Of a stretch of 64,000 bases of DNA, positions 40,251-52,801 are shown piece by piece. A model generated the notes under the pieces. The model had not been told where the DNA came from. It made no database searches and saw only the letters and a program-made list of their open reading frames with translations. Each line of letters begins with the position of its first letter. The first letter of the stretch is position 1. The stretch is from Variovorax sp. SG517 (GTDB lineage Bacteria; Pseudomonadota; Gammaproteobacteria; Burkholderiales; Burkholderiaceae_C). The stretch lies in assembly GCF_013376045.1 (NCBI RefSeq), contig NZ_JABMJG010000009.1, positions 186,001 through 250,000 on the forward strand, given 5' to 3'. Position numbers and translations under genes: made by a program.

Positions 40251-40475
40251 ATGCCCCCCTCGAGAAACATCGCGCTCACCGTCCACGAACTGGAGGCGGG
40301 CGAGTTCTACTGGGTGCTGATGGAAGCCGTGGACGACTCGCCCGGCGCGCCCGGCGAAACCTCCCACGTCTACGTGCCGCTGGAGGCGGCCCACGAGCCG
40401 TACGCCACCTACTCCAATGCGCTTGTGGCGGGAGTGGCCATGATGCGGCGGCTGTTCGGGCCCGGCGGCCCCTGA
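40251..40475 (+). CDS. Small hypothetical protein, paralogue of 9564-9770
   Basis: 74 aa. NIALTVHELEAGEFYWVLMEA aligns with the 68-aa protein at 9564-9770, including an AGEFYW/PGAYVW turn and a closing helix. Acidic and soluble. No known domain. It lies directly upstream of the riboswitch leader with no obvious link. Confidence 0.55.
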   Translation: MPPSRNIALTVHELEAGEFYWVLMEAVDDSPGAPGETSHVYVPLEAAHEPYATYSNALVAGVAMMRRLFGPGGP

Positions 40476-40516
40476 GGCCGCCAGCGGGGCCTGGAGGGGC
40501 CCGGAGGGGCGCTACC

Positions 40517-40522
40517 TATAAT
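40517..40522 (+). promoter_or_regulatory. Possible -10 element for riboswitch transcript
   Basis: TATAAT at 40517-40522, about 50-60 bp before the riboswitch core. No good -35 is visible. Its perfect match and location make it the best candidate promoter of the cobalamin/cobalt operon. Confidence 0.4.
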
Positions 40523-40569
40523 CCCGCCGTTCCGATGCGGCAGTTTTCATTAGTTACCCGCCGCACCGG

Positions 40570-40845
40570 ACAACACGGTTCGAAGGTGCCCCGCACGCCA
40601 TCTCATCCTTGGCGACGGGGTTAAACGGGAAGCAGGTGAGCTGCGCCGTCGTTCTCTCCCGAGAGCGATGGACGCGCCAATTCCTGCGCTGCCCCCGCAA
40701 CGGTCAGCGGATCTGGAACCCTCGGGCTCGTGCCTCATCGATCGGCACGGGCAGCCACTGCGCTTTGGCGTGGGAAGGCGAGGATTTCCGCCGCGGCGTG
40801 CATCCAAAGCATGCCGCGGCACTCCGCAAGCCCGGATACCGGCCT
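40570..40845 (+). promoter_or_regulatory. Cobalamin riboswitch (B12 element)
   Basis: All main B12-element blocks are present in order: GGTGCC (40585), TTAAACGGGAAGCAGGTG (40621-40638), the B12 box GCTGCCCCCGCAACGGTCAG (40687-40706) and the closing AAGCCCGGATACCGGCC (40828-40844). The spacer before the last block is long (about 120 nt), suggesting an enlarged peripheral arm. Adenosylcobalamin binding would lower expression of the TonB-dependent receptor that starts at 40995. No clear terminator follows, so control may be at translation. Confidence 0.95.
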
Positions 40846-40994
40846 TCGCAACCGCCTTCGGACGCTGCGGGAGTGCGTGTCCGGGCCTGCCGCTTCACTC
40901 GCCCGCGAGCCGCCGCAGTCCCTTCGCCTCTACCCCCCGCCGCGTCCTTCATCGGTCAGGAGCCTGCGGGGACGCAGGCCGGAGGAGAAACTTC

Positions 40995-43187
40995 ATGGGT
41001 CATGCATCGCCGCCAGGACGCGATCGCAGGAGGGCGTCGCAACGGCCGCGGCGCTGGGCGCGGTTTTCGGGGCTTTCCAGTCTTTCGCTGGGTTGGGGGC
41101 TGGCCCTGGGGCCCTGTGCGGCGGCCTTCGCGCAAACGCCCGACGGCCAGACCCTCAAGCCGATCCAGGTCGATGCCGAACGGCACACGCCATTGGCCAT
41201 CGACGAACCCACGCAGACCGGCAGCCGCCTGGGCCTCACGCCGCTCGAGACGCCGGCCAGCGTCGAGGTGCTGTCGGGCGACACCATCCGCGCGCGCGGC
41301 GACGTCTCGGTGGTCGACGCCGTCACCCGCGCCACCGGCATCACCGGCTCGCCCGGTCCGGGCAACGGCGGCACCGCGCTGGTGGCGCGCGGCTTCCTCG
41401 GCCACGGCTCGGTGATGCAGCTCTTCGACGGCACGCGCCTCTACGCGGGCGCCGGCACCGTCACCTTTCCCTTCGACACCTGGTCGGCCGACCGCATCGA
41501 GGTGCTGCGCGGCGCGGCCTCCGTGATGTACGGCGAGGGCGCCATCGGCGGCGCGATCAACGTGGTGCCGAAGAAGCCCACGCGCGGGCCGATCCGCAAT
41601 GAAGCGCTGCTCACGCTCGGCTCCGACGCCACGCGGCAGGTGGCCTTCGGCAGCGGCGGGGCGATCAACGACCGGCTTTCGTACCGATTCGACATCAGCC
41701 AGCGCAACACAGACGGCTTCATGCAGCGCGGCGAGGCCGAGAGCCTGGCCGTGAGCGCGGCCGTGCGGCTCGACGTGTCACCGCAGCTGCAGTTCACGCT
41801 CTCGCACGACGAGGGCCGCCAGTCGCCGCAGCGCTACTACGGCGTGCCGCTGATCGACGGCCGCCTGAGCAGCCAGACGCTGCGACAGAACTACAACGTG
41901 GACGATGCCGAGATCAAGTACCGCGACAAGTGGACCCGCCTCGACGCCCAGTGGACGCCCAGCGACGCCGTCACCGTGCGCAACCAGCTCTACCGGCTGG
42001 AGAGCAAGCGCCACTGGCGCAACAGCGAGACCTACACCTACAGCCCCGCCACCCGCCGCGTGACGCGCGGCGACTACCTGGAGATCGGCCACGACCAGGA
42101 GCAGATCGGCAACCGCACCGACGCCACCTTCAGGCACGGGATGTTCGGCCTGGCCAACCAGGTGCTGGTGGGCTTCGACGTGAACCGCATCGACTTCACG
42201 CACACCAACGACTCTCCCTACGGTGGCCGATCGGTGGTCGATCCCTTCGTCTTCAGCCCCGGTTACTACGCGTCGCCCGTGGCCTACACGCCGCGCTACA
42301 AGACGAAGACCAGCACCTACGCCTTCTTTGCCGAGGACAAGCTGGCCTTCAACGAGCGGTGGTCGGTGGTGGGCAGCCTGCGCTGGGACCACGCGAAGGT
42401 CGCGCGCACCGACCTGCAGAACGCCGCCAACAGCTTCGGCAAGACCTTCGAGTACGCCACCGGCCGCCTCGGTGTGGTCTACGCACCCGACGCCTCGCAG
42501 TCGTTCTACGCGCAAGTGGCGCGCGCGGCCGATCCGCTGGGCTCGCTGGTGACCACCTCCGCGTCGCAGGCGGCCTTCGACCTCAGCACCGGCCGGCAGG
42601 TCGAGGTCGGCTACAAGCGCCAGCTCGCGGACAACCGCGGCGCCTGGACCGTCGCCGCCTACCGCATCGACAAGAACAAGCTGCTGTCGCGCGACGCCAT
42701 CGATCCGACCGTCACCCAGCAGGTCGGCAAGCAGTCTTCCGAAGGCATCGAGGCCACGCTCGACCTGGCGCTGAGCTCCACGCTGCGGCTCGAGGCCAAC
42801 GTCGCCAAGCTGCGTGCGCGCTACGACGACTTCAACGAAGTGGTCGGCGGCAGGCTGGTCTCTCGCGCCGGCAACACGCCCACCGGCGTGCCGGAGGAGG
42901 CCGCCAACCTCTGGCTCACCTGGCGCTTCCTGCCGCAGTGGGAGGCCGACGTCGGCCTGCGCTACGTGGGCTCGCGCCAGGTCGATTCGGCCAACTCGCG
43001 AAAGATCGGCTCCTACACGGTCGCCGATGCGGGCGTGAGCTGGCAGGCGAATCCGTCGCTCAAGCTCGCGCTGCGTGCCTACAACCTGGCCGACCGACGC
43101 TATCCGGTGTCGTTCTCGAACGGCGGCAACCAGTGGCTGCTGGGGCGTCCGCGCTCCTTCGAGCTGTCGGCGCTGGTCAGCTTCTGA
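40995..43187 (+). CDS. TonB-dependent outer-membrane receptor under B12 riboswitch control
   Basis: 730 aa from the ATG at 40995 with a strong GGAGGAG site; the frame is open back through the riboswitch, but that part is non-coding. Long signal ending AAAFAQ, TonB-box-like LKPIQVDA, plug domain (residues about 60-170, TPLETPASVEVLSGDTIRAR and DRIEVLRGAASVMYGEGAIGG) and a 22-strand barrel ending in SFELSALVSF. The barrel resembles siderophore (FhuA/FpvA-like) receptors rather than BtuB, so a cobalamin, cobinamide or cobalt-chelate ligand is inferred from the riboswitch and neighbours. Confidence 0.9.
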   Translation: MGHASPPGRDRRRASQRPRRWARFSGLSSLSLGWGLALGPCAAAFAQTPDGQTLKPIQVDAERHTPLAIDEPTQTGSRLGLTPLETPASVEVLSGDTIRARGDVSVVDAVTRATGITGSPGPGNGGTALVARGFLGHGSVMQLFDGTRLYAGAGTVTFPFDTWSADRIEVLRGAASVMYGEGAIGGAINVVPKKPTRGPIRNEALLTLGSDATRQVAFGSGGAINDRLSYRFDISQRNTDGFMQRGEAESLAVSAAVRLDVSPQLQFTLSHDEGRQSPQRYYGVPLIDGRLSSQTLRQNYNVDDAEIKYRDKWTRLDAQWTPSDAVTVRNQLYRLESKRHWRNSETYTYSPATRRVTRGDYLEIGHDQEQIGNRTDATFRHGMFGLANQVLVGFDVNRIDFTHTNDSPYGGRSVVDPFVFSPGYYASPVAYTPRYKTKTSTYAFFAEDKLAFNERWSVVGSLRWDHAKVARTDLQNAANSFGKTFEYATGRLGVVYAPDASQSFYAQVARAADPLGSLVTTSASQAAFDLSTGRQVEVGYKRQLADNRGAWTVAAYRIDKNKLLSRDAIDPTVTQQVGKQSSEGIEATLDLALSSTLRLEANVAKLRARYDDFNEVVGGRLVSRAGNTPTGVPEEAANLWLTWRFLPQWEADVGLRYVGSRQVDSANSRKIGSYTVADAGVSWQANPSLKLALRAYNLADRRYPVSFSNGGNQWLLGRPRSFELSALVSF

Positions 43188-43210
43188 ACGACGGGCAGGA
43201 CGAAGAACGC

Positions 43211-44749
43211 ATGACCTCCGCATGGCGCCGCGCTTGGCCGCGCATCCGGCACTGGCTCTACTGGACGCACCGGTGGCTGGGCATCGGCGGCTGCCTGCTG
43301 TTCGTCATGTGGTTCCTCTCGGGCGTGGTGATGATGTACGTGGGATATCCGAACCTCACGGACGAGGAGCGCCTTGCGGGGCTCTCGCCGCTGCGCTTCC
43401 GGCAGGCGACGGTGTCTCCAGCGGCTGCGCTCGAAGCGCTGCCCAAGGATGTGCGCGCCCAGCCGCCGCGGCGCATGGTGCTGGAGACGCAGGGCGGAAC
43501 CGGCGCCGGCCCCGTCTGGCGCATCGTTGACGCGCGTGGCGGCCGGCATACGGTGTCGGCACGCGACGGCCGCATGCCCGGCCCGGTCGATGCCGTGCAG
43601 GCCGAGTCGATCGCGCGCGACTTCTCCGGCCATGCCGGCGCCCGCTGGGCCGAGACGCTGGAGCGCGACCAGTGGACCGTGCCGCAGGGCCTGAACCCGC
43701 TGCGACCGCTGCACCGCATCGAGGTCGGCGACGCACCGGGCACCGAGCTCTACGTGTCGCAGGTCAATGGCGAAGTGGTGCGCGACACCACGCGACACGA
43801 GCGCTTCTGGAACTGGCTGGGCTCGGTGCCGCACTGGATTTACTTCACGCCGCTGCGCGCCGATCCGCCGCTGTGGCACGACGTGGTGGTGTGGCTGTCG
43901 GCCGCCTGCATCGTCTCGGCCGTGACGGGCATCGTCATCGGCATCCTTCGCGTGCGCCTGCGGCGACGTTTCCGCAGCGGGGCGGTCACGCCCTACAGCG
44001 GCTGGATGGCCTGGCATCACATCGCGGGGCTGGTCGGCGGCTTCTTCGTGCTGACCTGGATCGTCAGCGGCTGGCTGTCGATGAACCCCAACGGCTGGTT
44101 CCAGCGCGGAGCCGGCGATGCCGCGGCGATGGCGAACTACACGGGAGCCGGTACGTCGCCGTTCCCGTGGCCGCCCGCGTCGTTGCCGGCGGACGACGGC
44201 GCCGACGCACCCCGCGAGGCCGTGCTGCTGTGGTTCGACGGCAGGCCGCTGCTGCAGCTGCGCGATGCCAAGGCCCGCGTGCGGGTGGTCGATGCCGCCA
44301 CCGGCGCGCCGGCCACCATCGCGAAGGACGACATCCTGCGCGCCGCCGCCCGCCTGCGCCCCGGCTCGAACATCACCGAGGCCGTGCTCCAGACCCGCGA
44401 GGACTTCCACTGGTACGGCCATCACCGCGAGCGCATCGTGCCCGTCTGGCGCCTGCAGTTCGACGACCCGGTGCGCAGCTGGATCTACATCGACCCATCC
44501 AGCGGCCAGGTGGCCGGCAGCAGCGACGCCAGCTCGCGCCTGCGCCGCTGGCTCTTCAATGCGGCGCACAGCCTCGACTTTCCCTGGCTCATCCAATACC
44601 GGCCGGCCTGGGATCTCGTGATGTGGCTGCTTTCCCTCGTCGGCGCGGTGGCTTCGGCCAGCGGCGTCGTGATCGGCTGGCGACGGCTGCGGCGAAAACC
44701 GAAGCCGGCGGCCATGCCGGGCGCGCGGCAGGCGCTGCGGCGTTCATGA
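43211..44749 (+). CDS. PepSY-domain membrane protein (ferric/cobalt-chelate reductase-like)
   Basis: 512 aa, 23 bp after the receptor. Four hydrophobic helices: HRWLGIGGCLLFVMWFLSGV, the helix near residue 225 (VVVWLSAACIVSAVTG), one near 280 (HHIAGLVGGFFVLTWIVSG) and one near the C-terminus. PepSY-type periplasmic segments lie between. Conserved His residues next to the helices could hold haem or metal. Such proteins often accompany siderophore receptors and reduce the imported metal; here cobalt or corrinoid reduction is a possibility. Confidence 0.82.
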   Translation: MTSAWRRAWPRIRHWLYWTHRWLGIGGCLLFVMWFLSGVVMMYVGYPNLTDEERLAGLSPLRFRQATVSPAAALEALPKDVRAQPPRRMVLETQGGTGAGPVWRIVDARGGRHTVSARDGRMPGPVDAVQAESIARDFSGHAGARWAETLERDQWTVPQGLNPLRPLHRIEVGDAPGTELYVSQVNGEVVRDTTRHERFWNWLGSVPHWIYFTPLRADPPLWHDVVVWLSAACIVSAVTGIVIGILRVRLRRRFRSGAVTPYSGWMAWHHIAGLVGGFFVLTWIVSGWLSMNPNGWFQRGAGDAAAMANYTGAGTSPFPWPPASLPADDGADAPREAVLLWFDGRPLLQLRDAKARVRVVDAATGAPATIAKDDILRAAARLRPGSNITEAVLQTREDFHWYGHHRERIVPVWRLQFDDPVRSWIYIDPSSGQVAGSSDASSRLRRWLFNAAHSLDFPWLIQYRPAWDLVMWLLSLVGAVASASGVVIGWRRLRRKPKPAAMPGARQALRRS

Positions 44750-44822
44750 ACGGGGCTTGCGCCAGCCTGCCCATCCACCAACAATCAACTTTCGCACCGC
44801 GGTGCATTTCAGGAGGTGCTCG

Positions 44823-45500
44823 ATGCACATCGAACCAGGTCTAGTCGACGGATCCAAGATATTCCTCAGCTACGCGACGGCAGCCGCCGCGCTTGCCTAC
44901 ACCGGCAAGGTCGCGTTCCAGACGCTCATGAAGGACGGGCCTGCCGCACTGGTGCTGCGCTCCGCCATTGCCATGGCGCTGGTGTTCTGCTTCTTCGAGG
45001 TGTTTCCGCATCACCCGGTGGGCGTGTCGGAGGTGCACCTGATCCTGGGCACCACGCTGCTGCTGGTGTTCGGTCTCGCGCCCGCGGCCATTGGCCTGGC
45101 GGGCGGCCTGCTGATTCAGGGGCTGTTCTTCGAGCCGCAGGACATTCCGCAGTACGGCATGAACGTCACCACGCTGCTGGTGCCGCTGTTCGCGACCTCC
45201 GCGCTGGCGCGCCGCATCATTCCCGAGAAGCTGGCCTATGTGGACATCGGCTACCGCGAGGCTTTCAAGCTCTCGGTGGCCTACCAGGGCGGCATCGTGG
45301 TGTGGGTCGGCTTCTGGGCGCTGTACGGACGCGGCACCGGCATCGAGAACATGAGCCAGATCGCCAGCTTCGGCGCCGCCTACATGACGGTGGTGCTGGT
45401 CGAGCCTCTGGTCGACCTGGGCGTGCTGGCTGCCGCCAAGGCATGGCGCCGGCTGCAGGGTTCCGTCTTCGTCGAGCGCCGCCTGTACGGCGGCGTCTGA
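44823..45500 (+). CDS. CbiM-like cobalt/nickel ECF transporter substrate-binding membrane protein
   Basis: 225 aa, start fixed by AGGAGG and by the mature N-terminus MHIEPG: in CbiM/NikM the exposed Met-His pair at positions 1-2 ligates the metal. About six helices follow (PAALVLRSAIAMALVFCFFE, ILGTTLLLVFGLAPAAIGLA, QYGMNVTTLLVPLFATSALA). No CbiN, CbiQ or CbiO genes are near, so it is an orphan S-component, or partners lie elsewhere. Confidence 0.82.
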   Translation: MHIEPGLVDGSKIFLSYATAAAALAYTGKVAFQTLMKDGPAALVLRSAIAMALVFCFFEVFPHHPVGVSEVHLILGTTLLLVFGLAPAAIGLAGGLLIQGLFFEPQDIPQYGMNVTTLLVPLFATSALARRIIPEKLAYVDIGYREAFKLSVAYQGGIVVWVGFWALYGRGTGIENMSQIASFGAAYMTVVLVEPLVDLGVLAAAKAWRRLQGSVFVERRLYGGV

Positions 45501-45558
45501 CCTCTTCCTCTCGTCGCTTCCCCGGGGCAGGCCTCGGGGAGGCTGTCCGTTTCCATCG

Positions 45559-45584
45559 GTGGCGCCGGAATCATCCGGCGCCAC
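45559..45584 (+). terminator. 11-bp hairpin between cbiM-like gene and cobW
   Basis: GTGGCGCCGGA (45559-45569), loop ATCA, TCCGGCGCCAC (45574-45584), followed by TTTCGCCTT. Perfect stem. It probably terminates or attenuates the riboswitch operon, in which case cobW onward has its own promoter in the 135-bp gap. Confidence 0.65.
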
Positions 45585-45635
45585 TTTCGCCTTGCTGGTG
45601 CGCCCCGCTCGCGAGCGCCTGAAAGAATCCACCCC

Positions 45636-46703
45636 ATGACCCCAAGCAACGCCAAGATCCCCGTCACCATCGTCACGGGCTTCCTCGGCAGCGGCAAGAC
45701 CACGCTGCTGCGCCACATCCTCGGCAACGCCGAAGGCCGCCGCATCGCGGTGATCGTCAACGAGTTCGGCGAGCTGGGCATCGACGGCGAGATCCTGCGC
45801 GGCTGCGGCATCGGCTGCGACGACGAAGGCAACGAGCGTGAAGGCGCGCTCTACGAACTGGCCAACGGCTGCGTCTGCTGCACGGTGCAGGAGGAGTTCC
45901 TGCCGGTGATGCTGCAACTGGCCGAACGCCGCGGCGAGCTCGACGCGGTGCTCATCGAAACCTCCGGCCTCGCGCTGCCCAAGCCGCTGGTGCAGGCCTT
46001 CCAGTGGCCGGACATCGCCAACATCTTCACCGTCGATTCGGTGGTGACGGTGGTCGACGGTCCCGCCGCCGCCTCGGGCCAATTCGCCGAGAACCCGCAG
46101 GCGGTCGATGAAGCCCGCCGCGCCGATCCCAACCTCGACCACGAATCGCCGCTGCACGAGCTGTTCGAAGACCAGCTCTCGGCCGCCGACCTCGTGGTTC
46201 TCAACAAGACCGACCTGATGGACGACGCGGCGCGCGCCAAGGTCGAGGCGCTGGTGCGCGAGGAACTGCCGCCCGAGGTGAAGATCGTCGCCGCCAGCGA
46301 AGGCCGGCTGCCGCTCGCGCTGCTGCTGGGCCAGGGCCGCGCGGCCGAGGACACCATCCACCTGCGCGAGAGCCACCACGACCACGAGGAAGACCACGAC
46401 CACGACGAGTTCGATTCGCTCGTGATCGAGTTGCCGCCCGTCGAGCGCGACAGCCTGCTGGCCGCGCTCGGCAAGCTGGTCGAGCAGCACACCATCTACC
46501 GCGTGAAGGGCTTCGTCGCCGTGCCGGGCAAGCCGATGCGCCTGCTGGTGCAAGGCGTGGGCCGCCGCTTCGACCATCACTTCGACCGCCGCTGGCGCGA
46601 CGGCGAGGCGCAGCGCACGCGGCTGGTGTTCATCGGCGAAGACCTGGACGAAGGCGCGCTGCGCAAGGCGCTCGAAGAGGCGAGCGCGGTCGCCACCGCC
46701 TGA
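45636..46703 (+). CDS. cobW: CobW GTPase, metallochaperone (COG0523)
   Basis: 355 aa. Walker A GFLGSGKTTLLRH, metal site CxCC in LANGCVCCTVQEEF (about residue 75), Walker B-like ETSGLALPKPL, NKTD base-recognition motif. A His/Asp-rich stretch (SHHDHEEDHDHDE, about residues 247-260) can store metal. The C-terminal CobW domain is complete. Likely delivers cobalt to CobN, whose gene starts 13 bp downstream. Confidence 0.94.
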   Translation: MTPSNAKIPVTIVTGFLGSGKTTLLRHILGNAEGRRIAVIVNEFGELGIDGEILRGCGIGCDDEGNEREGALYELANGCVCCTVQEEFLPVMLQLAERRGELDAVLIETSGLALPKPLVQAFQWPDIANIFTVDSVVTVVDGPAAASGQFAENPQAVDEARRADPNLDHESPLHELFEDQLSAADLVVLNKTDLMDDAARAKVEALVREELPPEVKIVAASEGRLPLALLLGQGRAAEDTIHLRESHHDHEEDHDHDEFDSLVIELPPVERDSLLAALGKLVEQHTIYRVKGFVAVPGKPMRLLVQGVGRRFDHHFDRRWRDGEAQRTRLVFIGEDLDEGALRKALEEASAVATA

Positions 46704-46715
46704 CGCCCCGAGCGC

Positions 46716-49700
46716 ATGCACCTGCTGAGCACCCAGCCCGGACGCTTCGTCGAGGACGACAGCGTCGTCACGCGCCTCGACCAGACGCCGGGCGACATCG
46801 TGGTGCTCAGCTCGGCCGACACGACGCTCGCGCTGCTCGCCGCCGCGCGCACCGCGCTGGCGGCCACCGACCCCGGCTATCCGTCGCTGCGGCTGGCCAA
46901 CCTCATGTACCTGCGCCAGCCGGCCTCGCTCGACCTCTACGTCGACGAGGTGCTGCAGCATGCGCGCGTGGTGGTGGTCGACCACCTGGGCGCCGAATCG
47001 GCCTGGGCCTACGGGCTGCAGCAGCTCGAGAAGCTGGCCAGGCGCAAGGGCCAGCAACTCGCCATGTTCTCCGGCGACCTGCAGGAAGACGAAGACCTGC
47101 TCGCGCGCGGCACGCTGTCGCGCGCGGTGAGCCGCCGGCTCTGGCAGTACATGCGCAGCGGCGGGGCAGGCAATGCGATGCAGTTCCTGCGCGCCGTGGC
47201 CTTTCACGGCCTGGGCCACGGCGAAGCGCCGCTGCCGCCGCGCAGCCTGCCGCAGGTGGCGCTGCACGTGCCGGGCGGCGTGGGCGCTTCGCATACCGTG
47301 GCCGGCATCGACGACCTGCGCGCCGGCTGGCACGCGGGCGCGCCGGTGGTGGCGCTGGTGTTCTATCGCTCGCACCTGCTGTCGGGCAACACGGCGGCCT
47401 TCGATGCGCTCGCCGCGGCCTTGACTGCGCAGGGACTGAACCCGCTGCCCGTCGCGCTCGATTCGCTGAAGGATCCGCTGTGCCTTTCCACACTGCGCGC
47501 GCTGTGCGCAGAGCACGATGTGCAGCTCGTGCTCAACACGACCGCATTCGCGGCGCTGGGGCAGGGCGGACAGAGCGACGAGGTCGAGCTGGCCGGCGAC
47601 GCCCCCGTGCTGCAGGTGATCGTGAGCGGCGGCAACCGGGAAGACTGGCTGGCCGACAGCCAGGGCCTGCGCCCGCGCGACATCGCGATGCAGATCGCGC
47701 TACCCGAGATGGACGGCCGCATCGTCACGCGCGCCGTGAGCTTCAAGGGCCTGTCGCACCGCTGCGAGCTCACGCAGACCGAGGTGGTGAACTACCAGCC
47801 CGAGCCCGACCGCATCGCCTTCGTGGCAGAGCTGGCGCGGCGCTGGTGCAAGCTGCGCAGCCTGCGCGCAGAAGAGAAGCGCGTCGCGCTGATCCTCGCC
47901 AACTACCCGGGCAGCGAAGGCCGCATCGGCAGCGGCGTGGGGCTGGACACGCCGGCCTCGGTGATGGCGATCCTGCACGCGATGACGGCCGAGGGCTATG
48001 CGCTCGGCGATCCCGATGCGATGCCCGTCGACGGCGATGCGCTGATGCGCAAGCTGCAGGAAGGCATCGCCAACGACCCGTCGCAGTGGGCTTCGCGGCC
48101 CGCCTGGCAGAGCTTCGCACTGGCCGACTACCGGGCATGCCTGTCACGCCTGCCCGATGGCATGGCCGCAGCCATCGACGAACGCTGGGGTGCGCCCGAG
48201 CAAGACCCGATGCTGCGCAACGGCCGCTTCATGATCGCCGGCCTGCGGCTGGGCCGCGTGTTCGTCGGCATCCAGCCCGCGCGCGCGCTCGGCAGCCTGG
48301 GCGCCGCCGACTACGCGAGCTACCACGACGCCGAGCTGGTGCCGCCGCACAGCTACTTGGCCTTCTACTTCTGGCTGCGCGAGGCCTTCGCCATCGACGC
48401 GGTGGTGCACGTGGGCAAGCACGGCAACCTCGAATGGCTGCCCGGCAAGAGCATCGCGCTGTCGCAGGCCTGCTGGCCCGACGCGATCCTCGGGCCGCTG
48501 CCCAACGTGTATCCGTTCATCGTCAACGATCCGGGCGAGGGCGCGCAGGCCAAGCGGCGCACGCAGGCGGTCATCGTCGACCACCTCATGCCGTCGCTCA
48601 CGCGGGCGGAGAACCACGGCCCGATGCAGGACCTGGAGCGGCAGGTCGACGAGTACTACGACGCGCTGCTGGTCGACGCGCGCCGCGCGAAGGTGCTGCG
48701 CGCGCAGATCCTCGCCGCGGTGCGTGCGCAGCACCTGATCGAGGAGCTGGGCTTGCCCGGCGCGCAGGAGGAAGACGACGCCGTGCTCGCGCGCGTCGAC
48801 GCCTACCTCTGCGAGCTGAAGGAAACGCAGATACGCGACGGGCTGCACGTCTTCGGCGCCTCCCCGAACGGACGGCTGCGGCGCGACACGCTGCTGGCGC
48901 TGGCGCGCTATCCCGCTGCCGATGGCGCGGGTGCGAACGCCGGTTTGCTCGGCGCGCTCTCGCAAGACCTGCTGCCCGACGACGCCTTCGATCCGCTCGA
49001 CATCGACGCGGCCAAGCCATGGCAGGGCGCGCGCCCCGAGCTGCTGCAGTCGGTGAGTACGGAGGCATGGCGCCACCAGGGCGACACGCGCGAGCGGCTG
49101 GAACTGCTCGCGCAGCGGCTGATGGAAGAGGGCGCGTGTCCTCCCGAGCTGCCGCGCACCGCCGCCGTGATGAGCCGAATCGACAGCAGCCTCGCACCCG
49201 CGCTCGACGCCTGCGGCACGCAGGAGCTGCGTCAGCTGTCACGCGCCCTGCAGGGCCGCTTCGTGCCGCCGGGCCCGAGCGGCTCTCCCTCGCGCGGCCG
49301 GCCCGACGTGCTGCCGACGGGCCGCAACTTCTACGCCGTCGACACCCGCGCCATTCCCACGCCCACGGCCTGGATGCTCGGCCTCAAGTCGGCAGCGCAG
49401 CTGGTCGAACGGCACATGCAGGAGCACGGCGACTATCCGGCGGCGCTAGGCCTGTCGGTCTGGGGCACGGCGACCATGCGCACCGGCGGCGACGACCTGG
49501 CGCAGGCCTTCGCGCTGATCGGCGTGCGGCCGAAGTGGGCGCCGGGCAGCCAGCGGGTGGTCGATTTCGAGGTGCTGCCCACGGTCGGGCTCGGGCGTCC
49601 GCGCATCGACGTCACGCTGCGCATCTCGGGCTTCTTCCGCGACGCCTTCCCGAATGCCGTTCAGATGTTCGACGCGGCAGTGCAGGCCGTGGCGGCACAG

Positions 49701-50531
49701 GAAGACGAGGACGAGGAACGCAACCCGATCCGCGCGCGCATCCTTCGCGAGACCGCCGCGCTGCAGGCCCGGGGCATGGCGCCTGAGCTTGCCCGCACGC
49801 AGGCCGGCTGGCGCGTGTTCGGCTCGGCGCCCGGCAGCTACGGCAGCGGCCTGCAGCCGCTCTTCGACCGCGGCGACTGGCAAAGCGACGACGACCTGTC
49901 GAAGGCCTACGTCGGCGGCAGCGCCCATGCCTACGGCCAGGGCAGTGACGGCGTGCCGGCGGCCGACGCGCTGAAGCGCCGGCTGCGCGCGATGACCGTC
50001 GTCATGCAGAACCAGGACAGCCGCGAGCACGACCTGCTCGACTCCAACGACTACTACCAGTTCCAGGGCGGCATGGCCGCCGCGGTGCGCCACCTGAGCG
50101 GCCGCCAGCCCGCCATGTACCACGGCGACCACGGCAACCCGCAGGCGCCGCGCGTGCGCACGCTGAAGGAAGAGATCGGCCGCGTCGTGCGCTCGCGCGT
50201 GGTGAACCCGAAGTGGATAGCCGGCGTGAAGCGCCACGGCTACAAGGGCGCCTTCGAGATGGCTGCCACGGTCGACTACCTGTTCGGCTTCGACGCTACC
50301 GCGCGCGTGGTCGGCGACCACCAGTACGCGATGCTGGCCGACGCCTACGTGCTCGACGAAGCCACCCGCGATTTCGTGAACGAACACAACCCGCGCGCGC
50401 TGACCGACATGCTCAACCGCCTGCTCGAAGCCATGCAGCGCGGCCTTTGGCAGTCGCCCGGCGACTACCGCGCCCAGCTGGAGAACCTGCTGCTCGACCA
50501 CGAGCAGCGGATGGAAGGAATCCCCCGATGA
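46716..50531 (+). CDS. cobN: Cobaltochelatase subunit CobN
   Basis: 1271 aa, the large subunit that binds hydrogenobyrinate a,c-diamide and inserts Co(II) in the aerobic B12 route. Typical stretches: VHVGKHGNLEWLPGKSIALS, PNVYPFIVNDPGEGAQAKRRTQAVIVDHLMPSL in pieces, KWIAGVKRHGYKGAFEMA, YYQFQGGMAAAVRHLSG. The N-terminus starts MHLLSTQPGRFVEDDS. Its stop overlaps the start of the AAA+ gene (ATGA), giving coupled production of chelatase subunits. Confidence 0.95.
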   Translation: MHLLSTQPGRFVEDDSVVTRLDQTPGDIVVLSSADTTLALLAAARTALAATDPGYPSLRLANLMYLRQPASLDLYVDEVLQHARVVVVDHLGAESAWAYGLQQLEKLARRKGQQLAMFSGDLQEDEDLLARGTLSRAVSRRLWQYMRSGGAGNAMQFLRAVAFHGLGHGEAPLPPRSLPQVALHVPGGVGASHTVAGIDDLRAGWHAGAPVVALVFYRSHLLSGNTAAFDALAAALTAQGLNPLPVALDSLKDPLCLSTLRALCAEHDVQLVLNTTAFAALGQGGQSDEVELAGDAPVLQVIVSGGNREDWLADSQGLRPRDIAMQIALPEMDGRIVTRAVSFKGLSHRCELTQTEVVNYQPEPDRIAFVAELARRWCKLRSLRAEEKRVALILANYPGSEGRIGSGVGLDTPASVMAILHAMTAEGYALGDPDAMPVDGDALMRKLQEGIANDPSQWASRPAWQSFALADYRACLSRLPDGMAAAIDERWGAPEQDPMLRNGRFMIAGLRLGRVFVGIQPARALGSLGAADYASYHDAELVPPHSYLAFYFWLREAFAIDAVVHVGKHGNLEWLPGKSIALSQACWPDAILGPLPNVYPFIVNDPGEGAQAKRRTQAVIVDHLMPSLTRAENHGPMQDLERQVDEYYDALLVDARRAKVLRAQILAAVRAQHLIEELGLPGAQEEDDAVLARVDAYLCELKETQIRDGLHVFGASPNGRLRRDTLLALARYPAADGAGANAGLLGALSQDLLPDDAFDPLDIDAAKPWQGARPELLQSVSTEAWRHQGDTRERLELLAQRLMEEGACPPELPRTAAVMSRIDSSLAPALDACGTQELRQLSRALQGRFVPPGPSGSPSRGRPDVLPTGRNFYAVDTRAIPTPTAWMLGLKSAAQLVERHMQEHGDYPAALGLSVWGTATMRTGGDDLAQAFALIGVRPKWAPGSQRVVDFEVLPTVGLGRPRIDVTLRISGFFRDAFPNAVQMFDAAVQAVAAQEDEDEERNPIRARILRETAALQARGMAPELARTQAGWRVFGSAPGSYGSGLQPLFDRGDWQSDDDLSKAYVGGSAHAYGQGSDGVPAADALKRRLRAMTVVMQNQDSREHDLLDSNDYYQFQGGMAAAVRHLSGRQPAMYHGDHGNPQAPRVRTLKEEIGRVVRSRVVNPKWIAGVKRHGYKGAFEMAATVDYLFGFDATARVVGDHQYAMLADAYVLDEATRDFVNEHNPRALTDMLNRLLEAMQRGLWQSPGDYRAQLENLLLDHEQRMEGIPR

Positions 50532-51622
50532 CCACAGCCGCCCCGATGCCGGTGCCCTTTCCCTTTGCCGCGATAGCGGGCCAGCCGCATCTGCGCCAGG
50601 CCCTGTTGCTGGCCGCCGTCGACCCGGGCCTGGGCGGCGTGCTCATCGAAGGACCGCGCGGCACGGCCAAGACCACCGCGGCGCGCGCGCTCGCCGAGCT
50701 GCTGCCCGGCGCGCCCTTCGTCACGCTGCCGCTGGGCGCGAGCCTCGAAAGCCTGGTCGGCACGCTGGACCTCGCGAAAGCCCTGGCGGGCCATGAGCTC
50801 GCCTTCGCGCCCGGCCTGCTGGCGCGCGCGCATGGCGGCGTGCTGTACGTGGACGAAATCAACCTGCTGCCCGACGCGCTGATCGATTCGCTGCTCGACG
50901 CTGCCGCCAGCGGCGTCAACGTGGTGGAGCGCGACGGCATCTCGCACCGGCATGCCGCGCGTTTCGTGCTCGTGGGCACGATGAACCCGGAGGAGGGCAC
51001 GCTGCGCCCGCAGTTGCTCGACCGCTTCGGCCTGTGCGTGCAGTTGCGCAACATCGACGAGCCGGCCGAGCGGCAGGCCATCGTTCGCGCCCGGCTGGCC
51101 TTCGATGCCGATCCGCAGGGCTTTCGCGCGAAGCATGCGCAGGAAGAGGCGGCGCTGGCTGCCTCGCTGGCGCGCGCGCGGACGCTCGTGGCCGATGCGT
51201 CGGCGCTGCCTTATGGCGATGCGGTGCACGAGGCCGTAGGCGCGCTGTGCATTGCCGCCGGCGTCGACGGGCTGCGCGCCGATCTCGTGATGCTGCGCTC
51301 GGCCCGGGCGCTCGCGGCCTGGGAAGGTGCTGACGGGATCACGGCCGACCACGTGCGGCGCGTGGCCGAAGCGGTGCTGCTGCATCGTCGCAAGCCCGGG
51401 GCCGAGGCTGCAGCGCCGGCTCCGGCATCCGGCGCTGCAAGGCCCGCCGCGACCGTCAATGGGCAGGACGGCACGAACAGCGCGAACGACTTGGGCGGCA
51501 CGGGAGATGTGGGTGGAGAGGACTGGGGCGCCATGCCTCCCGAGCCCGTCGGCATCGAGCGCGTGAAGCCGCTGCGCCCGCTGATCGCCCCCGCGCAGGC
51601 GGTCGCCTCAAAAAAAGCCTGA
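50528..51622 (+). CDS. chlD: ChlI-like AAA+ subunit of cobaltochelatase (0-frame product of chlI/chlD gene)
   Basis: 364 aa. Mg-chelatase-type AAA+ ATPase: Walker A EGPRGTAKTTAARAL, Walker B GGVLYVDEINLLPDALIDSLLDAA in pieces, sensor stretch VLVGTMNPEEGTLRPQLLDRFGL, then a lid (residues about 210-300) and a low-complexity acidic/Gly linker as in ChlD. It ends VASKKA-stop. The A7 run and stem at the stop let a share of ribosomes shift to the -1 frame and continue into the VWA domain. The unshifted protein would serve as the small ring ATPase. Confidence 0.88.
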   Translation: MTTAAPMPVPFPFAAIAGQPHLRQALLLAAVDPGLGGVLIEGPRGTAKTTAARALAELLPGAPFVTLPLGASLESLVGTLDLAKALAGHELAFAPGLLARAHGGVLYVDEINLLPDALIDSLLDAAASGVNVVERDGISHRHAARFVLVGTMNPEEGTLRPQLLDRFGLCVQLRNIDEPAERQAIVRARLAFDADPQGFRAKHAQEEAALAASLARARTLVADASALPYGDAVHEAVGALCIAAGVDGLRADLVMLRSARALAAWEGADGITADHVRRVAEAVLLHRRKPGAEAAAPAPASGAARPAATVNGQDGTNSANDLGGTGDVGGEDWGAMPPEPVGIERVKPLRPLIAPAQAVASKKA

Positions 51623-51670
51623 GCCTCCGGGACGCCACGCCCGCTGGCTCGCGCCAGGGTGACCGGAGGC
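51610..51670 (+). promoter_or_regulatory. Programmed -1 ribosomal frameshift signal
   Basis: Slippery A AAA AAA at 51610-51616 (0-frame codons tcA AAA AAA GCC TGA); 6-nt spacer GCCTGA, which includes the 0-frame stop; then a perfect 8-bp stem GCCTCCGG (51623-51630) with CCGGAGGC (51663-51670). Its loop holds a second hairpin CTGGC-TCGC-GCCAG. An SD-like AGGCGG sits 7 nt upstream (51597-51602). Shifting gives codons AAA AAA AGC CTG in the VWA frame. Confidence 0.85.
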
Positions 51671-52272
51671 AGGGTTCGCACAGGGACGCATGGCACGCCA
51701 CAGCCACGCACGGCGCTGCCTTCGATTGGCCGCGCACCTTCGCGGCGCGCGGCGCCGGCCGGCTCCGTGCCGAACACCTGCGCCATCGTCCGCGGGAGGC
51801 GCGCAGCGGCGCGCTGCACTGCTTCCTGCTCGATTGCTCGGCCTCCATGCGCGACGACGGCGGCCTCGCGCGCGCCAAGGGCCTGCTGCTCGCGCTGATG
51901 CAGGAGGCTTACCAGCGCCGCGACCATGTCGCGCTGCTGTGCTTTGCCGGCGACACGGTGGAGCTGCGCCTGCCGCCGCGCCGCGCCAGTGCGTGGAACG
52001 ACGACTGGGTCGCGCCCATCGCTGCCGGCGGCGGCACGCCGCTCGCGCTGGGCGTGCGGCGCGCCGACCAGTTGCTGGCGAAGAGCGAGACGCGGCAGCG
52101 CTGGCTGTGGCTACTGACGGACGGACGCAGCAGCGAGAGCCCGACGCGGCCGGAGGCCGCCGACGTGGCATGCGTGATCGACTTCGAGGCGGCGCGGTTG
52201 CCGCTGCATCGCGCGAGGCGGCTGGCCGCGCAATGGGATGCGCGCTACCTCGCCGCGGGCGGGATGGCCTGA
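51616..52272 (+). CDS. chlD: VWA domain of ChlD-like cobaltochelatase subunit (-1 frame portion)
   Basis: 218 residues read after the -1 shift; joined to the AAA+ part the full product is about 581 aa, right for ChlD. MIDAS motif DxSxS in HCFLLDCSASMRDDGG, a Thr in AGGGTPLALG and LLTDGRSS. The first ATG of this frame (51847) falls after DCSAS and would destroy the metal site, and there is no good ribosome site or other start upstream, so independent initiation is unlikely. Ends 1 bp from the convergent SET gene. Confidence 0.82.
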   Translation, partial: SLSLRDATPAGSRQGDRRQGSHRDAWHATATHGAAFDWPRTFAARGAGRLRAEHLRHRPREARSGALHCFLLDCSASMRDDGGLARAKGLLLALMQEAYQRRDHVALLCFAGDTVELRLPPRRASAWNDDWVAPIAAGGGTPLALGVRRADQLLAKSETRQRWLWLLTDGRSSESPTRPEAADVACVIDFEAARLPLHRARRLAAQWDARYLAAGGMA

Positions 52273-52273
52273 A

Positions 52274-52801
52274 TCAAGGAGCGGCCGGGGCGTCCTGCAC
52301 GGCCTGCACGGCCTGTACGGCCGCGGTTTCGTTTTCCGTCTCGGGCGGCGCCAGCATCGTTCCCCTGCAGTTCGGCGAGCCGCAGTGGCAGGGGTACTTC
52401 GACGGCGGTGAGCCGTCGTCCGCTGTGAGCGAGTAGTCGATGAAAAGCTCGTCGCCCGCGTCCACCGCCACAAGCGTCTGGAACTTGAGCACCAGTTCGC
52501 CGCCCTCGTCGTATTCCTCCACCGCCTCGCAGTTCGGCTCGCACGAATGGTTGAGGTGGCGGGTGGCGTTGCCGCCCTTGGCGCCGTCGATGGTCTCGTT
52601 GTTCGACAGCGTGAACAGGTAGGTGAGCTGGTCGTCCCAGACCTTGGTGGCGATCTCGGCCTTGGTGTAGCGGCGGCCTTCGTAGAGGCCGAGAAAGGCT
52701 TCGGCCGGCAGGTCGCGCGTGGCGAAGGCGCCGAGGCCGTGCACGCCGCTGGGGCCTACGCGCACGAAGGGGGTGGACGAGGTTCGCTTGTGGTGCTTCA
52801 T
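52274..52801 (-). CDS. SET-domain lysine methyltransferase-like protein
   Basis: 175 aa. Complete SET plus post-SET: VRVGPSGVHGLGAFATRDLP, ATRHLNHSCEPNCEAV (AdoMet/pseudoknot NHSCxPNC), DAGDELFIDYSL, and zinc-binding PCHCGSPNCRGTM (CxC-x4-C). It would methylate protein lysines; the bacterial substrate is unknown. The C-terminus holds a short AVQAVQAVQ repeat from a 9-bp tandem DNA repeat. Such eukaryote-like genes in proteobacteria are often viewed as acquired. Confidence 0.9.
   Translation of the reverse strand: MKHHKRTSSTPFVRVGPSGVHGLGAFATRDLPAEAFLGLYEGRRYTKAEIATKVWDDQLTYLFTLSNNETIDGAKGGNATRHLNHSCEPNCEAVEEYDEGGELVLKFQTLVAVDAGDELFIDYSLTADDGSPPSKYPCHCGSPNCRGTMLAPPETENETAAVQAVQAVQDAPAAP

Follow-up and report, generated by a model that had tools for sequence, protein, structure and literature searches.

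In bacterial dnaX, -1 frameshifting at a heptamer of the A_AAA_AAG type, followed by a downstream stem, yields a shorter and a longer version of one AAA+ subunit. This system is like fs-chlD in its A-rich heptamer and stem and in providing two lengths of an AAA+ subunit to one complex, but differs in that the longer dnaX form is the 0-frame product, whereas the longer form of the gene described here would need the shift. The fs-chlD, or 'magnesium chelatase', frameshift genes were reportedly treated by Antonov in Mol Biol Evol in 2020. In the published literature, -1 frameshifting has been described for 'magnesium chelatase' genes, with Delftia and Burkholderia among the named members, and an A_AAA_AAA cassette gave 10% frameshifting in E. 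coli (Antonov et al. 2013, PMC3711429); Delftia belongs, like Variovorax, to the Comamonadaceae, and the word Variovorax is absent from the main text of that paper. A later review describes the chelatase frameshift genes as having A_AAA_AAR and a structure-forming sequence without strong conservation (Atkins et al. 2016, PMC5009743). The name fs-chlD accompanies the proposal that the small and medium chelatase subunits come from one gene, found either in producers using the aerobic Co-chelatase ('stage 8') or in genomes devoid of the pathway and of the large subunit ('stage 1') (Kuznetsov et al. 2022, PMC9227772). The statement of an earlier note on this DNA, that programmed frameshifting had already been reported for chlD genes, is thus borne out in the passages of these papers on chelatase genes (PMC3711429, PMC9227772, PMC5009743). 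The frameshift mechanism is already published for the chlD family, and what is less expected is its retention in an apparent non-producer; among the titles listed in literature searches, nothing was found on fs-chlD in Variovorax or on its role in non-producers.

The gene analyzed here lies in a window (the whole 64-kb stretch of DNA under study) of a source genome of 7.4 Mb in 31 contigs, and shares with fs-chlD a predicted -1 shift at an A-rich heptamer where the AAA+ half gives way to the VWA half, with a stem downstream, the annotation as two genes, and the proposed origin of small and medium subunits from one gene. Its 0-frame product (50528-51622, on the forward strand, as are all features below unless stated otherwise) is, by its open reading frame and profile matches, a ChlI/BchI-like AAA+ ATPase small subunit of 364 aa, the ATG of which overlaps the end of cobN by 4 nt. 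This half matches TIGR02030 (E 1.4e-93) and TIGR02442 (E 1.1e-110), both below the curated cut-offs, is above cut-off for PF17863, PF01078, and PF07728, and has ChlI (8osf and 1g8p) as its closest PDB chains. The -1 frame at 51616-52272 comprises a linker and a VWA domain (PF13519, E 4.8e-9; PF00092, E 1.6e-6) with the MIDAS motif DCSAS at 51832-51846, and also matches the C-terminal part of TIGR02442 and the ChlD models. The predicted fusion would be a ChlD-like medium subunit, collinear with TIGR02442, putative cobaltochelatase (NCBIfam), over profile positions 87-591 of 641 (467 bits, E 7.8e-140), a score that fails the curated cut-off of 779 bits for this family. The continuation of the -1 frame for 218 codons into a VWA domain and the 581-aa length of the fusion (363 + 218), both proposed in the earlier note, were reproduced, and its remark that the MIDAS motif lies upstream of the first ATG of the VWA frame is right for the window, in which the first ATG, GTG, or TTG of that frame is the ATG at 51847, immediately after DCSAS. 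As a general argument, the position of MIDAS before any start was set aside, because all three start codons are absent before MIDAS in only 12 of 92 junctions (the window included), and ATG in 61 of 92, so that the start-free stretch provides no general proof of frameshifting.

Across the junction, the 0-frame reads TCA AAA AAA GCC TGA. The slippery heptamer A_AAA_AAA (51610-51616), a run of seven A with AAA AAA as its 0-frame codons, is followed by the 6-nt spacer GCCTGA (51617-51622), which contains the 0-frame stop TGA (51620-51622), and by a putative stimulatory stem, the 5′ arm GCCTCCGG (51623-51630) of which pairs perfectly over 8 bp with the 3′ arm CCGGAGGC (51663-51670). Folding recovered this stem together with predicted inner helices, namely, 51633-51636 with 51658-51661 and a hairpin formed by 51644-51648 and 51653-51657, with a minimum free energy of -35.6 kcal/mol. 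The A7 run, the 6-nt spacer, the 8-bp stem with its inner hairpin, and the stop within the spacer are therefore confirmed to the base as described in the earlier note. Neither the energy of the stem nor the rarity of the run was kept as proof of the site. The 74-nt structure has no excess stability over its shuffles (z -0.80, with 36 of 200 shuffles folding at least as well), the energy being unremarkable for such GC-rich DNA, and A7, a single occurrence in the 64 kb on both strands, nevertheless turns up in 27 of 100 shuffled versions of the window. As the run and the stem are each non-significant alone, the evidence for the site is their conservation in relatives.

The VWA half served as the query for collecting relatives: 49 of 100 genus genomes and 115 of 399 family genomes matched at E ≤ 1e-5, as did 9 of 399 order genomes at E ≤ 1e-20, and 21 loci came from genome contigs; 40 additional stretches were taken for junction analysis, five duplicate genomes being already in the set. 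Of the 117 match places in the family, the 65 with weak scores (32-42% identity, E no lower than 8e-18) lie outside the junction set, as do five genomes of the genus search (G010, G040, G047, G071, and G091), and five loci with no upstream AAA+ match in the available piece (L060, L080, L086, L105, and L119) were excluded from the counts. After merging of loci identical within 60 nt on either side of the stop, 94 distinct junctions with both halves were obtained, all from close relatives; the nearest named loci to the VWA half of the window are from Variovorax, with V. gossypii DSM 100435 at 88% identity. The VWA half stands in the -1 relation, with an in-phase X_XXY_YYZ heptamer, in 92 of the 94, the heptamer being A_AAA_AAA in 89 (a run of seven A in 88 and of eight in one), C_CCA_AAG in two (L117 and L120), and A_AAA_AAG in one (L058, from G422). 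The two genomes with C_CCA_AAG (G399 and G458) belong to the same genus as G331, which carries A_AAA_AAA (L114), and we regard these three junctions as natural exchanges of a frameshift site as far as their sequences tell. The 0-frame stop follows the heptamer by 3 nt in 89 of the 92 and by 24 nt, past the 5′ arm of the stem, in the other three (L103, L108, and L113, from G234, G103, and G446); these were at one time considered to be junctions with no A run, which was dismissed, as their upstream codons show A7 in phase, and their stem begins 7 nt after the run, as usual.

The earlier note named as grounds for refutation a resequenced run of A6 or A8, or relatives with a single unbroken frame and no slippery run. 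Among the relatives, one junction with an unbroken frame and one with A6 were found, and the other 92 of the 94 junctions agree with that note. L045 (G424), from a draft of about 140 contigs, has a single unbroken AAA+/VWA frame with no A run and a shorter linker, the only such case in the 94. A second ChlI-like protein sought in G424 gave one weak match and none convincing; that match, considered as a separate ChlI, was rejected, as it reads on inspection, without a family scan, as a sigma-54-activator-like open reading frame. In L018, the run is A6 and the halves are in a +1 relation, a register beyond repair by -1 slippage; its sequence is identical to that of Variovorax sp. E3, the draft genome of which has about 420 contigs, and it may represent an error or a lost gene. 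Among the 65 weak match places of the family, 60 sit in open frames of at least 550 aa, which suggests that more distant relatives with the VWA domain in a single frame probably exist.

The stem is likewise conserved in place. A Watson-Crick stem of at least 6 bp beginning exactly at the seventh nucleotide after the heptamer is found in 80 of the 92 junctions, against 7.8% of dinucleotide shuffles (110-nt stretches, 20 each), the 3′ arm being picked by best pairing in real and shuffled sequences alike, and the remaining 12 junctions have fewer than six uninterrupted Watson-Crick pairs at that spacing. In a scan of offsets from 0 to 15, the best offset was 6 in 63 of the 92; all these counts come from related sequences and are hence not independent events. 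There are 27 distinct arm pairs among the relatives, some nested in one another, and pairs 4-6 of the stem vary on both sides by compensatory changes: among the 80 stems, pair 4 is T-A in 40, A-T in 25, and C-G in 15, and pair 5 is C-G in 66 and T-A in 14. The junctions with an exchanged heptamer keep the spacing of the others, with nine Watson-Crick pairs in L058, six in L117, and five in L120, the last under the 6-pair mark. Whereas the passage of the review on these genes describes the structure-forming sequence as lacking strong conservation (PMC5009743), the stem in the relatives of the window covaries at a fixed distance. Downstream of the shift, comparison of the VWA frame of the window with 28 Variovorax loci gave differences at 1790 third, 706 first, and 483 second codon positions, with 1378 synonymous and 1001 nonsynonymous changed codons, a distribution typical of a translated frame that is moderately constrained.

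Overlapping AAA+ and VWA frames in a -1 relation, a conserved in-phase heptamer, and a covarying stem at suitable spacing, the features by which fs-chlD is recognized, were all found here. The gene is thus very probably an fs-chlD, a single-gene chelatase motor whose AAA+ and VWA domains are connected by a linker carrying a programmed -1 ribosomal frameshift site. Ribosomes reading A_AAA_AAA without shifting would stop at the TGA and release the 364-aa ChlI-like AAA+ subunit, whereas a fraction of them would pause at the stem-loop 6 nt downstream and slip back by one base, both Lys-tRNAs re-pairing on AAA (simultaneous -1 slippage), to yield the 581-aa ChlD-like AAA+/VWA subunit. The ChlI-like and ChlD-like products would be expected to form a double-ring motor driving the CobN encoded directly upstream. 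The heptamer, its spacing, the stem, their conservation, the coding selection, and the linkage to cobN are seen in the sequence itself, whereas we infer slippage, its rate, and the assembly of its products with CobN. The earlier proposal that one gene yields both subunits is supported, at the level of sequence, by the heptamer with its fixed spacing, by the covarying stem, and by a -1 frame that is under selection and has no start codon upstream. A search of the own genome and of G001, G017, G032, and G048 with the AAA+ half at E ≤ 1e-8 gave no match besides the gene itself, and CobT is also absent from the latter four.

The main rival to ribosomal frameshifting is transcriptional slippage, in which RNA polymerase would add an A to the A7 run (or drop two), giving a subset of mRNAs with the fusion in one frame. 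A homopolymer at the site of nearly all members (89 of 92) fits this explanation; efficiency is reported to track run length, and polymerase slippage to favour runs of A or T (PMC3711429). However, the run stays at seven, with no drift to longer ones, and the stem conserved 6 nt downstream is presumably not needed by a slipping polymerase. In the three relatives with C_CCA_AAG or A_AAA_AAG, the heptamer is exchangeable while its phase and the position of the stem hold, and the C_CCA_AAG junctions are devoid of any run longer than four, which argues for ribosomal over polymerase slippage and leaves the latter unlikely.

Two separate genes would also produce the observed frames if the VWA half began independently or through termination-reinitiation after the TGA. 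Many relatives do have GTG or TTG, and some ATG, in the VWA frame between the junction and MIDAS, including an ATG before 60 nt downstream of the shift in 13 of the 92; however, reinitiation is unlikely in the window, because no start codon precedes MIDAS in its VWA frame, it leaves the conserved in-phase heptamer unexplained, and the fused product can be aligned along TIGR02442, whose members carry the two domains on a single chain. Taken together, these points make the two-gene explanation highly improbable. A sequencing or assembly error, or a decaying pseudogene, might be suspected from the error-prone nature of homopolymers, of which the A6 in L018 may be one instance, but A_AAA_AAA recurs in the same register in 89 of the 94 distinct junctions from many genomes and the -1 frame has a codon pattern, so that its probability is negligible. 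Programmed ribosomal frameshifting is therefore retained as the reading of the junction, and a published recoding signal appears to be near-constant among the sampled close relatives (92 of 94 junctions).

The gene is the last of a putative operon that has at its head a cobalamin riboswitch (40568-40861; RF00174, 84.1 bits against a gathering score of 31.5). It is followed by a TonB-dependent receptor (40668-43187; TIGR01783, 260 bits, cut-off 223.5; PF00593 and PF07715), the true start of which is probably later than listed because the riboswitch overlaps the listed one, and a PepSY-TM protein (PF03929; 43211-44749, the start being approximate, at the first Met of the matching part), scored on the longer open frame 41930-44749 with 36.8 bits against a cut-off of 28.8. 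Further downstream are a CbiM-like cobalt-uptake membrane protein (44757-45500; PF01891, 57.3 bits, cut-off 23.1), the metallochaperone GTPase gene cobW (45636-46703; TIGR02475, 505 bits, cut-off 332), and cobN for the large chelatase subunit of 1271 aa (46716-50531; TIGR02257, 1551 bits, cut-off 822), which matches the CobN of PDB 9uk9 with 1259 bits over query residues 1-1264. CobW and CobN are encoded upstream in 12 of 12 other Variovorax flanks of the window's clade (clade I) and in 11 of 12 flanks from a distant Variovorax clade and other genera, with the riboswitch within 12 kb upstream in nine of the former and in six of the latter; the TonB/PepSY/CbiM part is variable among flanks. The operon is probably repressed by cobalamin via the riboswitch. 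A scan of 40300-52700 gave no promoter-like site and six terminator-like sites, uninformative against a shuffle mean of 4.2. Convergent with the chelatase gene, a small SET-domain protein (PF00856, E 2e-16) is encoded at 52274-52801 on the reverse strand.

Of the two hallmarks of an aerobic cobaltochelatase of de novo B12 synthesis, adjacency to CobN was found, whereas a genomic corrin-ring pathway was not. A PF02570 search of the own genome gave no precorrin-8X methylmutase (CbiC/CobH), and a PF00590 search for TP-methylases, done in this genome only, gave two matches, SUMT (siroheme) and RsmI; the genome therefore appears to be unable to build the corrin ring, judging from these profile searches. 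The relatives were tested with CbiC only, over genomes within the family (five order-level genomes lie outside this coverage), some of them less than 90% complete (e.g., G010, G022, G029, and G099). The window's clade, defined by at least 63% identity to the VWA half, comprises 38 of the 100 genus genomes (G010 and G079 only in part), and CbiC is absent in 37 of these 38, the exception being G066, in which it lies more than 3 Mb away on the same contig. The distant Variovorax clade (40-44% identity to the VWA half) comprises seven genomes, and in all seven CbiC shares a contig with the VWA match, at a distance of 1.2-1.8 kb. Among family members of other genera, CbiC is present in 32 of the 45 genomes with an analyzed junction (the unbroken L045 included), which indicates that outside Variovorax the gene mostly accompanies corrin synthesis. 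A quick IQ-TREE tree, from which L072 and L083 are absent, carries a long-branch warning, and only the accompanying CbiC counts were used.

Every one of the 42 genomes in which a CobN match reaches 1241 bits or more has a VWA-half match as well. The own genome further holds a CobS/CobT-like pair (L131, 9145-10167 and 10065-11900, forward strand; contig C1, which differs from both CobN contigs), with 523 bits for CobS (TIGR01650 cut-off 559) and 310 bits for CobT (TIGR01651 cut-off 759), both under these cut-offs and above those of Pfam, which gives this genome another candidate motor besides the frameshift products. CobT is present in 27 of the 38 genomes of the window's clade, and among the sampled CobT-bearing Variovorax genomes 18 of 48 are without a CobN match, so that CobT is independent of CobN within the genus. 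A second CobN-family protein of 1463 aa (L132, 8624-13015, reverse strand; C2:837998-841210 of the own genome) adjoins genes for CbiB, a CobD-like aminotransferase, BtuR, and BtuC-like and BtuF-like proteins. G035 and G080 have a CobN in the score class of this second protein with neither a VWA-half match (E ≤ 1e-5) nor CobT, suggesting that the second CobN may work without such a motor. Compared with the two stages described for fs-chlD (PMC9227772), the window genome has cobN, no corrin-ring pathway found, a second CobN, and a CobS/CobT-like pair.

The designation 'cobaltochelatase' in the earlier note consequently stands in part: the gene encodes a putative chelatase motor beside cobN, but the B12-synthesis step does not fit, given that searches of the genome found no corrin-ring enzymes. 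Where a genome is without most corrin genes, annotations of cobalt chelatase were earlier ascribed to overlap with other chelatases (PMC6461909). In Sphingomonas haloaromaticamans, a riboswitch-btuB-hoxN-cobW-cobN-cobO-btuF cluster occurs in a strain whose methionine auxotrophy has been tied to B12; it shares with the present operon the cobalamin riboswitch, a TonB-type receptor, a cobalt transporter, cobW, and cobN, and differs in that no chlD is named in the description of the cluster (PMC6970198). HmuS of Bacteroidota, a CobN homologue acting as a heme de-chelatase, is likewise a large subunit of the CobN/ChlH family, used outside tetrapyrrole synthesis (PMC12583661), but the CobN of the window matches it with 351 bits (9d26) against 1259 bits to CobN (9uk9), and adjoins an ATPase motor gene.

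With no corrin-ring synthesis found in the genome, de novo B12 synthesis is probably not what the chelatase serves, and the substrate of the complex is probably a scavenged corrinoid or some other tetrapyrrole. Corrinoid salvage, leaving aside the substrate and the choice between insertion and removal, is the role that we favour, in view of the riboswitch for cobalamin, the receptor, and the salvage genes next to the second CobN. In a more specific version, which we offer tentatively as one possibility, the CobW-CobN-fsChlD operon would encode a cobalamin-repressed chelatase dedicated to salvage in organisms unable to build the corrin ring, putting the metal into scavenged corrinoids (or into another tetrapyrrole), taking it out, or swapping it, with the frameshift setting the ChlI:ChlD ratio and the motor perhaps shared with the second CobN of the BtuF/BtuC/BtuR/CbiB locus. 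Altogether, our reading is that in Variovorax the frameshift belongs to a chelatase untied from ring synthesis. A chelatase with this frameshift, preceded by a B12 riboswitch in several flanks, appears to be retained in many Variovorax genomes without a detected CbiC, so that the role of 'orphan' chelatases becomes testable.
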